From: Piscinibacter sp.
Lineage (GTDB): Bacteria; Pseudomonadota; Gammaproteobacteria; Burkholderiales; Burkholderiaceae_C
Assembly: GCA_017983795.1 (NCBI GenBank)
Contig: JAGOAS010000005.1
Span: forward strand, 62,001-126,000
Reading direction: 5' to 3'
Length of the DNA: 64,000 bases
The notes beneath the pieces were generated by a model. It was not told where the DNA came from. It saw nothing but the letters and a program-made list of their open reading frames with translations, and did no database searches. Below, piece by piece: positions 50,107 through 64,000 of this stretch (its first letter is position 1; each line of letters begins with the position of its first letter). Position numbers and translations under genes: made by a program.

Positions 50107-55803
<5,697 letters not shown>

Positions 55804-55958
55804 GGGCCTCCGGAGGCGAAGGCGAAGGATTCTAGAGACTGCCCATCGAGCGTGCAGCGCGTCACGCCGCGCCGCCAGTCCATGCTTTCGCGGCGCGGCG
55901 AGTGTGGCCACACTAGCGGTCTCGGCGCACAGGGGTGCACCGCTCCAGGAGATACAGA

Positions 55959-60353: not shown

Positions 60354-61917
60354 GCCGCAGGCCCGGTGGACGCAGCTGCACGGCGTGCTGCAGCAGGCCA
60401 GCGACGCGATCATCACGATCGACGTGCAGCAGCGCGTGGTGTTCTTCAACCGCGCCGCCGAGCAGGTATTCGGCGTGGCCGCGCACGAGGCGCTCGGCCA
60501 GCCGCTGGACCGCTTCATCCCGCAGCGCCAGCAGATGGCGCACCGGCTGCACGTCGACCGCTTCGGCCGCAGCGGCAAGACCGCGCGCCAGATGGGCCGG
60601 CTGCACGAGCTCGCCGGCCGGCGCGCCGACGGCGAGGTCTTCCCGATCGAAGCCTCGATCTCGCGCTCCGGCGCGGGCGAGGAGCAGCTGATGACGGTAC
60701 TGCTGCGCGACGTCGGCACGCTGCGCGAGGCCGAGGCGCAGCAGGCGGCCCAGGCGCGCGCGGAAGCCGCGCGCCGCGCGATGGCCGAGTTCATCGGCCG
60801 GCTCGGCCACGAGATGCGCACGCCGCTGAACGCCGTGCTCGGCTTCTCGCAGCTGCTGCAGACCGACGAGCACGAGCCGCTCGCGCCCGGGCAGCGGCGC
60901 CGCGTCGAGCAGATCCGCACGGCGGGCTGGCACCTGCTGCGCCTGCTGGCCGACGCCTCCGACCCCGCGGTGCTGGAAAGCGGCGCGCTGCGCCTGGAGC
61001 TGGCCAGCGTGGCGCCGCTGGCGGTGATCGACGAGGCGCTGGCCATCTGCGAAACCGCGGCGCGCGCCCGCGGCATCGCCGTGCACGTGCACGAGCGCGG
61101 CACACAGGCGCCGCTGCACGTGCAGTGCGACCCGCTGCGCCTGCGCCAGGTGCTCATCAACCTGCTGTCCAACGCCGTCAAGTACAACCGCGACGGCGGC
61201 GCGATCGACATCCACCTGCGCCGCGACGACGCCGGCGTGAGCATCGAGGTGGTCGACACCGGCATCGGCATGACGCCCGAGCAGCTCTCGCACCTCTACG
61301 AACCCTACAACCGCCTCGGCCGCGAGCGCGAGGTGGCCGAGGGCAGCGGCATCGGCCTGGTGCTGACGCGCCAGCTCGTCGAGCGCATGCACGGCCGCCT
61401 CGAGATCGACAGCGAGGCCGGGCGCGGCACGCAGGTGCGCGTCACCCTGCCGGCCGCCGAGGTGGCGCCGGGGCTGCCCGAGACCCCTCCGCCGCCGCCC
61501 GCGCCGGCACGCGGCGCGGACGACGAGGCGCTGCCGGGCGCCGTGGTGCTCTACGTCGAAGACAACCCGGTCAACGTGCTGCTGGTCGAGCAGCTGCTCG
61601 CGCGCTGGCCGCAGATCGGGCTGGTGCACGCGGAGGACGGCCACGCCGGACTGGAACTCGCGCGCCGCCTGCAGCCCGACCTCGTGCTGCTCGACATGCA
61701 CCTGCCCGACATGAGCGGCCTGCAGGTGCTGGCCGCGCTGCGCAGCGACCCCGCCACCGCATCGCTGGGCGTGGTGGCGCTGTCCGCCAGCGCCGAAGCC
61801 GACGACATGCAGCGCGCCCGCGAGGCCGGCGCGATCGAGTACTGGACCAAGCCGCTGGACATGCACGGCTTCCACGCCGACGTGGCGAGGGCGCTGGGGC
61901 GGCGGGTGGTGGCATAG
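60343..61917 (+). CDS. Cytoplasmic hybrid histidine kinase (PAS-HisKA-HATPase-REC)
   Basis: The 524-aa protein has no membrane segment. It begins with a PAS domain (SDAIITIDVQQRVVFFNRAAEQVFGVAAHEALG, residues about 15-110), HisKA with His156 in IGRLGHEMRTPLNA, HATPase_c (NLLSNAVKYN, DTGIGMTPEQ, GSGIGLVLTRQL), a Pro-rich linker and a receiver with Asp451 in LVLLDMHLPDM. No output domain follows. It starts within the AraC gene's end, so both are probably made from one message. Confidence 0.9.
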   Translation: MGTEPQARWTQLHGVLQQASDAIITIDVQQRVVFFNRAAEQVFGVAAHEALGQPLDRFIPQRQQMAHRLHVDRFGRSGKTARQMGRLHELAGRRADGEVFPIEASISRSGAGEEQLMTVLLRDVGTLREAEAQQAAQARAEAARRAMAEFIGRLGHEMRTPLNAVLGFSQLLQTDEHEPLAPGQRRRVEQIRTAGWHLLRLLADASDPAVLESGALRLELASVAPLAVIDEALAICETAARARGIAVHVHERGTQAPLHVQCDPLRLRQVLINLLSNAVKYNRDGGAIDIHLRRDDAGVSIEVVDTGIGMTPEQLSHLYEPYNRLGREREVAEGSGIGLVLTRQLVERMHGRLEIDSEAGRGTQVRVTLPAAEVAPGLPETPPPPPAPARGADDEALPGAVVLYVEDNPVNVLLVEQLLARWPQIGLVHAEDGHAGLELARRLQPDLVLLDMHLPDMSGLQVLAALRSDPATASLGVVALSASAEADDMQRAREAGAIEYWTKPLDMHGFHADVARALGRRVVA

Positions 61918-62062
61918 GTGGCGCAAGAGGCCCGTCACCGCTGCTTCTGCTGATCCAGGGCAGGGCGCGCCAGCGTCAAGAACTGCACGCTTCACGGCAG
62001 GCGTTGCGATTGACCCGGCATCGCACTTGTGCGAGCTTCGCCGAGAAGCCTGCGCGCCAATA

Positions 62063-62150
62063 GGAAAGCCCGGCACGAAGCCGGGCTTGGGTACGGATCC
62101 CTCGCGGGATCCTTATTGCAGCAACGGCTCTCACCCCGGATAGCTACAAC
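62063..62150 (-). ncRNA. tracrRNA: tracrRNA of a type II-C CRISPR-Cas9 system
   Basis: On the minus strand a 36-nt anti-repeat (62150 to 62115) starts GTTGTAGC and ends GAGAGCCGTTGCTGCAAT. A perfect 7-bp nexus hairpin, GGATCCC-GCGA-GGGATCC (62112-62095), follows. A 9-bp hairpin AAGCCCGGC-TTCGT-GCCGGGCTT (62088-62066) is near the 3' end. The GAG-ACCGTTGCTACAATAAGG core of the N. meningitidis tracrRNA is matched almost base for base by GAGAGCCGTTGCTGCAATAAGG. The 3' end is inferred; the tail after the hairpin (TCC) is a weak terminator, so it may run further, over two more small hairpins. Confidence 0.85.
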
Positions 62151-62156
62151 AAGACC

Positions 62157-62185
62157 ATTATGGGAGACCTCGGCATGACTGGCAA
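62157..62185 (-). promoter_or_regulatory. Predicted tracrRNA promoter
   Basis: On the minus strand, TTGCCA (62185-62180, 5 of 6 to TTGACA) stands 17 nt from CATAAT (62162-62157, 5 of 6 to TATAAT). This places the start at about 62150, exactly the first base of the anti-repeat. The promoter spans the cas9 ATG at 62175 on the other strand. Confidence 0.7.
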
Positions 62186-64000
62186 CCCGGCCGCGCATCC
62201 GCTCACTTTCGGCTTCGACATCGGCATTGCATCGGTCGGCTGGGCAGTGCTCGACGACAGGCGCATCGTCGACCACGGCGTCAGAGCCTTCGACAAGGCA
62301 GAGACTGCGGATCGCGGCGAGCCACTGAACCTTGCTCGACGAACGGCCCGGTTGCTGCGCCGGCGCCTGCGTCGCCGGGCCTGGCGTCTCGTACGAGTGG
62401 CTCGGCTGCTCAAACGCGAAGGTCTCATTGCCGATTCGCGCTGGTTCCTCGCGCAACCGTCGTTTGCAGACTCCACCTGGCGCCTGCGCATCGAAGGCCT
62501 GAACCGACGGCTCAGCGACGAGGAGTGGGCCCGAGTGATCTACCACCTGTGCAAGCACCGCGGCTTCCATTGGACAAGCCGCGCCGAGGAGCGCATGGCC
62601 GAGGCCGACGCCCAGGGCGAAGGAGGCAAGGTCAAGCAGGGGCTTGCGGGCACCGAACGGCTGATGAAGCAGAAGAACTACCGCAGCATCGCCGAGATGG
62701 TGCTGGCGGAGTTTCCCGAAGCGCAGCGCAACAAGCAGGGTGAGTACACCAAGGCGCTGCCGCGCCGACTGCTCGGTGACGAGTTCGCGCTACTGTTCAG
62801 GCGCCAGCGCGAGTTGGGTCAGCCGCATTCCGGCGAAGGCCTCGAAGCGGCGCTGCTCGAACCGAAGAAGGGCTTGTTCTGGACTCAGAAGCCGTCGCTC
62901 ACCGGTGAAGCACTGCTTGCCATGCTGGGCCGCTGCACCTTCGAGCGCGCCGAGTACCGCGCACCTCGCGCCAGCTTCACGGCGGAACGACACGTATGGC
63001 TGACGCGTTTGAACAACCTGCGCATCGTCGTCGACGGAATTGTTCGTCCGCTGAACCCTGCTGAGCGCGACGCCGCCCTGCCCTTGCCCTATGAGCTCGT
63101 GCAAGTCACCTTCAAGCAGCTCCACGCGGCGCTGGTCGACAAGGCCGGGCTCCCCGACGAGGCGACGTTCTCGGGCCTGCGTCCGGCGAAGGAGGGCAAG
63201 GATCCGCTGTCGGAGCGGCTCATCCGGTTGCCGGCATGGCAGGAACTGCGCACCACCCTCAAGAGAGCGAACCTGGAAACGGAATGGAAGAGCATCGCTG
63301 GCGCGGCCGTGGGTGGCTCGCCGGGACTGCTCGACGATATCGCGCGGGTGTTGAGCGTCTACAAGGAAGACGACGAGGTCCGCGCCGAACTGGCCCGCCT
63401 GCCACTGCCTGGAGCCCGCAGTGCCGTCGCCAATGCGCTGCTCGACATCCGCTTCGAGGGCTTTCACGCGCTGTCGCTGAAGGCGCTGCGCAAGATCGTG
63501 CCGCTGATGGCGACGGGTTTGCGCTACGACGAGGCCTGCGTGCAGGCGGGCTATCACCACAGCCAGATCGTCGAGCCGGGAAGCGGCGAGCACGATCTGC
63601 TGCCGCCTTTCTACAAGTATCGTGACCGCAGCGGCCGGATGGTGTTGCGCGACGACGGTGACATCCCACGCAACCCGGTGGTGCTGCGCGCACTGAACCA
63701 GGCGCGCAAGGTCATGAACGCGCTGGTGCGACGATACGGCGCACCCGCTGAAGTGCATATCGAGATGGCGCGCGATCTGTCGCGCGACTTCGATGAGCGT
63801 CGCAAGATCGAGAAGGAGCAGTCCCAATTCCGCGAGCGCAACGAGAAGGATCGCCAGGACTTCGCGCAAGCCTTTCACATCGCAGGTCGCGTGCAGGGCA
63901 GCGATTTCGAGAAGTGGCGGCTTTACCGCGAGCAGCAGGGCAAGTGCGCGTACTCGCTGAGCGCGATCGACGTTGACCGGCTCTTGGAACCCGGCTACGT
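62175..64000 (+). CDS. cas9: CRISPR-associated endonuclease Cas9, type II-C (partial, runs off the end)
   Basis: The frame is open for 608 codons to the window end with no stop, so the gene is incomplete. RuvC-I has Asp15 in FGFDIGIASVGWAVLD. The Arg-rich bridge helix covers about 54-84 (ARRTARLLRRRLRRRAWRL). KHRGF at 127-131 matches the REC start of small Cas9s. RuvC-II has Glu530 in EVHIEMARDLS. The HNH domain begins at about 585 (WRLYREQQGKCAYSLSAID); its catalytic His lies outside. GGGAG 8 nt upstream supports ATG 62175 over ATG 62160. GC is about 57-63% in sampled lines against about 75% in neighbours. Confidence 0.95.
   Translation, partial: MTGNPAAHPLTFGFDIGIASVGWAVLDDRRIVDHGVRAFDKAETADRGEPLNLARRTARLLRRRLRRRAWRLVRVARLLKREGLIADSRWFLAQPSFADSTWRLRIEGLNRRLSDEEWARVIYHLCKHRGFHWTSRAEERMAEADAQGEGGKVKQGLAGTERLMKQKNYRSIAEMVLAEFPEAQRNKQGEYTKALPRRLLGDEFALLFRRQRELGQPHSGEGLEAALLEPKKGLFWTQKPSLTGEALLAMLGRCTFERAEYRAPRASFTAERHVWLTRLNNLRIVVDGIVRPLNPAERDAALPLPYELVQVTFKQLHAALVDKAGLPDEATFSGLRPAKEGKDPLSERLIRLPAWQELRTTLKRANLETEWKSIAGAAVGGSPGLLDDIARVLSVYKEDDEVRAELARLPLPGARSAVANALLDIRFEGFHALSLKALRKIVPLMATGLRYDEACVQAGYHHSQIVEPGSGEHDLLPPFYKYRDRSGRMVLRDDGDIPRNPVVLRALNQARKVMNALVRRYGAPAEVHIEMARDLSRDFDERRKIEKEQSQFRERNEKDRQDFAQAFHIAGRVQGSDFEKWRLYREQQGKCAYSLSAIDVDRLLEPGY

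Follow-up and report, generated by a model that had tools for sequence, protein, structure and literature searches.

The window analysed here, a stretch of 64,000 nucleotides from Piscinibacter sp. (contig JAGOAS010000005.1), ends inside a cas9 gene, and the remainder of the locus was therefore taken from the same genome as L002, in which position p is window position 61900+p. The locus has the order tracrRNA-cas9-cas1-cas2-array of a type II-C system, with the following genes and array.

62175..64000, plus strand, continuing beyond the window (L002 275-3598): cas9, 1107 codons in total, from open reading frames and profiles
L002 3585-4499: cas1, from an open reading frame and a profile
L002 4505-4837: cas2, from an open reading frame and a profile
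66802-67507 in window-equivalent numbering, outside the window: array of 11 repeats and 10 spacers, with 67-bp spacing

Profiles of Cas9, Cas1, and Cas2 matched over their full length or almost. TIGR01865 matched the part of Cas9 that lies in the window, the HNH_4 and RuvC_III profiles matched Cas9 too, and the closest solved structures were 8hnt and 6jdq, both of which we take to be II-C Cas9 proteins. The interval from cas9 to the array holds only cas1 and cas2, with no csn2 or cas4 (open reading frames and profiles of L002). With cas9, cas1, cas2, and an array, and with a Cas9 that has HNH and RuvC parts, the system is, judged by its sequence, of type II-C. The repeat reads GTTGTAGCTCCCTCTCTCACCCCGGATAGCTACACT in the crRNA sense; its 11 copies are identical across the 25 bases compared, and a genome search in which as many as 3 of 25 bases could mismatch found it confined to its own array. 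A search for protospacers with the array stretch returned no convincing phage or plasmid match (best match 28/31 bases, to Gordonia phages, E 0.2). Only one of eight genomes of the genus carries the locus, which was therefore probably acquired. Between cas2 and the array lies a perfect hairpin flanked on either side by A/T tracts (L002:4857-4889, window-equivalent 66757-66789) that by eye looks like a two-way terminator, and a ParD/ParE-like toxin-antitoxin pair adjoins the array and is read towards it (L002:5701-6257, minus strand, window-equivalent 67601-68157). Elsewhere in the window, an open reading frame of 1934 codons (50107-55911, minus strand) resembles, as judged by eye, two UvrA proteins in one.

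Upstream of cas9 and divergent from it, the first-pass annotation had proposed a tracrRNA on the minus strand from 62150 to 62063, with a 36-nt anti-repeat, a perfect nexus, and a 3' stem-loop. All three parts were located where it had placed them, and the proposal was borne out by the fold, the cognate array, conservation, and covariation.

62063..62150, minus strand: tracrRNA, 88 nt as predicted, from fold, cofold, core in relatives, and covariation
62115..62150, minus strand: anti-repeat of 36 nt, partner of the array repeat, from cofold and locus-wise repeat match
62095..62112, minus strand: nexus hairpin, 7 bp and perfect, GGATCCC-GCGA-GGGATCC, from fold, covariation, and a locus-by-locus hairpin search
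62066..62088, minus strand: 3' hairpin, 9 bp and GC-rich, a probable terminator with a short T-run, from fold and covariation

RNA folding of 62152-62060 gave -47.9 kcal/mol (z -4.9), a value that 0/200 shuffles equalled. The terminator scan called none at the 3' hairpin of the window copy, where the T-run is weak (5 T within 8 nt past the trimmed stem), and Rfam returned no tracrRNA match in the window or near the gene. The 11-copy array begins approximately 1.3 kb past the end of cas9, and its repeat is the pairing partner of 62115-62150; an array that fails to pair with this segment, which the annotation had named as a refuting result, was looked for and was absent. The repeat:anti-repeat duplex reached -54.2 kcal/mol, compared with -17.8 +/- 3.7 (minimum -33.3) in 1000 shuffles, and the tracrRNA together with the repeat formed a near-complete duplex with a cofold energy of -87.4 kcal/mol. 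When the repeat was matched against 12787 windows of 40 nt from L002, the array excluded, every one of the best sites lay on the tracrRNA, and the next unrelated site reached -34.5. The annotation had also predicted a repeat of the form (G/A)TTGYAGC...CCGGATAGCTACAA(C/T), which came close to the real GTTGTAGC...CCGGATAGCTACACT but differed from it in the next-to-last base. In line with its comparison of the core with the N. meningitidis tracrRNA, the 22-nt core is 2 bases off that of L097, a locus that we take to be Neisseria.

Relatives were the best 80 of 117 loci from a scan of named genomes, and a same-family scan gave a match in 12/399 genomes, own genome counted. After removal of L001 and L083, which are other fetches of our own locus, the core GGTGAGAGCCGTTGCTGCAATAAGG was found with at most 6 mismatches on the minus strand in 84/92 loci (own included, some near-duplicates), always 24-125 nt before the position of cas9 residue 1 of the query. 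The eight loci that lack it are L019, L042, and L047, whose contigs start within cas9 or only just ahead of it, and L090-L094, in which Cas9 has at most 40% identity. The start of cas9 was assigned in 83 of the 84 loci (L066 was dropped, its start being unassigned), and removal of 23 near-duplicates from the 83 left 60 non-redundant loci, which are related, so that counts over them are not independent. Compensatory changes were seen in 12 of the 20 predicted pairs, 11 of these 12 in the two 3' hairpins; the nexus closing pair, for example, is G-C in 40 loci, A-U in 19, and U-A in 1. In a rough locus-by-locus search, 52/60 loci had a nexus stem with 4 or more pairs and 56/60 a terminator-like hairpin, the latter with 46 different arms. 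The anti-repeat likewise follows its repeat. In the 70 loci with both an array and the core, the 7 positions beside TCCGGGG matched between a repeat and its own anti-repeat at a mean of 6.19, compared with 3.89 when re-paired (0/5000 equal), and the same test over 34 distinct combinations gave 6.06 versus 3.83 (0/5000 equal); since related loci share repeat and anti-repeat by descent, these covariation counts are not probabilities. About three quarters of the mismatches between repeat and anti-repeat still permit a G-U pair.

Such covariation, in the hairpins and between anti-repeat and repeat, makes it barely credible that the feature is a dead remnant, that is, a degenerate and functionless inverted repeat beside cas9. 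The sparse occurrence of the locus in the genus (1/8 genomes) and the lack of protospacers in our search would fit decay, but the cas genes are open and the 11 repeats are identical over the 25 bases compared. The anti-repeat alone also folds as a hairpin, and N. meningitidis has a scaRNA that the available excerpt of one report compares with an sgRNA (PMC13431127); both would suit a natural single guide or scaRNA-like RNA, with a self-folded anti-repeat and the upstream stretch as an autoregulatory guide. This is very unlikely here, because the predicted start leaves no guide ahead of the anti-repeat and because the self-complementarity stems from the partly palindromic repeat. Moreover, the genome holds a single full copy of the tracrRNA sequence, its 11 further matches being the array repeats, and thus no second RNA copy or repeat-like match beyond the tracrRNA and array.

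The cas-distal end of the array showed features of its own. A long hairpin lies directly against the outermost repeat here (L002:5608-5648, window-equivalent 67508-67548), as it also does at relatives' array ends; its sequence differs per locus, and often a smaller hairpin, such as CTCGCGAAGTGAG, lies just outside. Stems of at least 12 pairs flush with the outermost repeat occurred at 20/38 non-redundant ends, versus 1/332 control windows. No repeat-like sequence was found beyond the hairpin in 41 array ends, and for the hairpin of our own locus Rfam matches were all below threshold. In 11 relatives (L010, L017, L027, L033, L043, L048, L049, L050, L056, L064, and L067) the outermost repeat at the cas-distal end shows decay, mostly in the outer third of the repeat; this suggests that the array is oldest at its cas-distal end, even though reading probably starts at that end. 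Similar repeats adjoin cas2 and a Cas1 gene of only 390 bp in L153, the Acidovorax temperans plasmid pEP1, with no cas9 annotated in the 14 kb shown, for which the gene table is incomplete.

Returning to the tracrRNA, its predicted promoter falls on the start of cas9.

62157..62185, minus strand: predicted tracrRNA promoter, TTGCCA at 62185-62180, 17 bp, and CATAAT at 62162-62157, with a start at about 62150
62162..62166, plus strand: cas9 ribosome site GGGAG, between the -10 and -35 of the predicted tracrRNA promoter

A consensus scan of 500 bp around the gene found this one promoter only, matching 10/12 bases (shuffle mean 0.0, sd 0.2). A start 7 nt past the -10, which ends at 62157, would fall at 62150, the first base of the anti-repeat and the very start that the annotation had proposed. 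The predicted sigma-70 promoter straddles the cas9 start: it contains the ribosome site, with which its -10 shares one base, and ATG 62175, and its -35 falls within codons 2-4 of cas9. We prefer ATG 62175, with its ribosome site GGGAG, as the probable start of cas9 and dropped ATG 62160.

This geometry recurs among relatives; one set of loci served both to find it and to test it, with recoding and neighbouring codons as internal controls. Counted from the A of the start codon, most relatives have the -35 at +5..+10 and the -10 at -18..-13. Pseudothauera rhizosphaerae (L025) and Nitrosomonas nitrosa (L027) are examples of relatives that share the layout. The start is 38-44 nt from the core in 48/60 non-redundant loci, and 40 of these 48 have TTG at +10..+8 in the minus-strand reading. 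Information at the three TTG positions was 1.61, 1.27, and 1.12 bits, compared with at most 0.45 deeper in the gene to +29, and Cas9 residue 4 is K or N in 40/48 loci. When the genes were synonymously recoded, each with its own codon usage, the mean -35 match fell from the observed 3.35 to 2.88 +/- 0.07, and TTG, observed in 40 loci, was present in 21.7 of 60 (maximum 36); 0/2000 recodings were as good in either respect. Codon 3 of cas9 ends in C in 40/43 cases (expected 23.0, z 5.6), while C-ending codons are under expectation at codons 2 and 5-12 (z -0.7 to -3.5) and near it at codons 4 and 13-15. Codon choice thus helps to keep the TTG of the tracrRNA -35. As exceptions, the start lies 46-60 nt from the core in 12/60 loci, which puts the -35 either on the start codon or upstream of it, and 8/48 loci have no TTG at the place, three of which (L055, L057, and L058) have a short N-terminus.

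Considering the anatomy, the cognate repeat, conservation, covariation, the fixed geometry, and the codon-level constraint, we find it highly probable that the feature is a tracrRNA belonging to a type II-C CRISPR-Cas9 system and that its promoter lies on the start of cas9. By analogy with the family, RNA polymerase would use TTGCCA-17-CATAAT to start minus-strand transcription at about 62150, and transcription would stop past the hairpin at 62066-62088. The anti-repeat would then pair with the pre-crRNA repeat in a duplex that RNase III could cut, and Cas9 would bind the RNA, with the repeat duplex and the nexus hairpin serving as the scaffold of its guide. Across the clade, the tracrRNA promoter and the cas9 start would use the same DNA, with the -35 in codons 2-4.

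A wider comparison set this arrangement apart from that of Neisseria. Cas9 scored over the cut-off in 47/399 genomes of the order and 28/369 of the class, own genome in both, and among the matches listed loci were obtained for 30/52 (order) and 29/29 (class), of which 58 loci were read. The core was present in 21 of the 58 and absent within 700 nt in 30, the other 7 having no N-terminal motif. The distance from core to cas9 was 42-68 nt in 16 loci (own included, at 43 by the same measure), 128-139 nt in L096-L099, which we take to be of Neisseria type, and 350 nt in L095. By the branching order of a FastTree Cas9 tree rooted on the Neisseria type, the short-distance loci formed one group beside L095. 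N. meningitidis-type II-C loci resemble ours in having cas9-cas1-cas2, an array read against the cas genes, and a divergent tracrRNA upstream of cas9 whose core is alike at 20/22 bases (L097). In L096-L099, however, the two promoters stand side by side, with the predicted tracrRNA promoter at -95..-97 and a separate predicted cas9 promoter at -38..-54 (only the second-best score in L098), whereas here the predicted tracrRNA promoter covers the cas9 start. Repeats differ as well: those of Neisseria carry an extended -10 with TG (TGnTACAAT, which we take to lie at the end of each repeat), while the repeat here ends ATAGCTACACT, with no TG. Inside the anti-repeat, an extended -10-like TGCTACAAT occurs on the minus strand in 29/59 loci in bin -60 and in 8/59 in bin -80; the window anti-repeat reads TGCTGCAAT, without this motif. 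Repeat promoters of the extended -10 kind are mentioned in the available excerpt of one report (PMC7038990), and another, in the part available, describes array orientation and a place and direction of the tracrRNA that vary within groups (PMC3936727).

A cas9 promoter between the tracrRNA and cas9 was sought on the plus strand, but the consensus scan found none there, or anywhere within 100 nt before cas9, in 59 loci. Over the same loci it returned 11 plus-strand sites against 11.7 expected, nine loci having one at -180..-101. A graded score gave an excess of sites with the -10 at -160..-121 (69 versus 36) and a second excess at -80..-61 (35 versus 18.7), the source of which is the invariant TTATTGTA of the tracrRNA. 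In the zone -170..-115, which was picked post hoc after this graded-score look, 43, 34, 26, and 17 of 60 loci reached thresholds 7, 8, 9, and 10, with 28.5, 17.5, 9.9, and 4.5 expected and 0/200 resamplings as good at each threshold. Four other zones showed no excess at thresholds 8 and 9 (60 resamplings), one of the four, -230..-175, being in deficit. This weaker, post hoc signal points to a possible cas9 promoter beyond the tracrRNA gene, where the window has one candidate.

62010..62038, plus strand: possible cas9 promoter, TTGACC-17-GAGCTT, the best plus-strand site in the window, with a poor -10; a weak prediction

If this promoter is right, the cas9 mRNA would start at about 62045, and its leader would be antisense to the whole tracrRNA. 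The tracrRNA gene, nested antisense in the cas9 leader, might then regulate cas9 in addition to serving as described above: free tracrRNA, or polymerase at its promoter, would lower cas9 until Cas9 binds the RNA. We regard both this addition and the repression it entails as possible rather than probable. The 26/60 loci that reach score 9 at -170..-115, against 9.9 expected, speak for such regulation, as do the four other zones without excess and the lack of a consensus plus-strand promoter between tracrRNA and cas9. At the same time, the zone was chosen afterwards, 34/60 loci fall short of 9, consensus sites were no more numerous than expected, bin -80 was also in excess, and the -10 of the site in the window is poor. 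The T-run of the tracrRNA end hairpin would fit as well, lying on the tracrRNA side only (5.7 T versus 2.2 T on the other side, per 8 nt, in 60 loci), but the hairpins in this comparison were selected for T on the tracrRNA side. Extended to the clade, the tracrRNA would be nested antisense in the cas9 leader with its promoter dual-coded with the ribosome site and the first four codons, balancing both products; free tracrRNA would pair with the cas9 leader as an RNase III substrate, or the promoter would block, until Cas9 takes up the RNA. We put this forward tentatively. It is on balance probable that the overlap reflects compaction only, with independent promoters and shared bases without regulatory meaning: few codon choices suffice for the -35, the 12/60 related loci noted above tolerate other spacings, and Neisseria-type loci work with promoters apart. 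Compaction does not readily account for one spacing being kept across a large clade, though few extra bases would free cas9.

The RNA itself is ordinary, a II-C tracrRNA near that of N. meningitidis. S. pyogenes uses a long tracrRNA for autoregulation. As with that RNA and the scaRNAs, an RNA with a repeat-derived part lies here beside cas9; those RNAs act as or with a guide, whereas the start predicted here gives an RNA with no guide in front of its anti-repeat, and control, if there is any, would act through antisense overlap or a clash of promoters. ScaRNAs are described, in the excerpts available, as repeat-derived RNAs beside cas9 and proposed gene regulators (PMC6199352, PMC13431127). 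A tracrRNA upstream of the cas genes is likewise reported in the available parts of papers on C. cellulolyticum (PMC7038990), Defluviimonas and P. pneumotropica (PMC7708072), EH Cas9 (PMC10281378), and Riemerella (PMC5006608); in C. cellulolyticum and Defluviimonas it was detected by sequencing, and the array is read against the cas genes. For none of these five do the excerpts mention a tracrRNA promoter inside the cas9 start, and in the accessible text of the CC-licensed PMC literature neither an overlap of a tracrRNA promoter with cas9 nor an antisense relation of a cas9 leader to the tracrRNA was found described. It is thus the arrangement of promoter and cas9 start, which we have not found described, that appears new, the kind of RNA being already known.

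If the promoter works as predicted, the promoter of a non-coding RNA has been kept within the first codons of the gene whose protein uses this RNA, and N-terminal residues of Cas9, residue 4 among them, would be set at least partly by the promoter and not by the enzyme. Recoding the start of cas9 could then silence the tracrRNA. The overlap also fixes the likely cas9 start codon for the clade.
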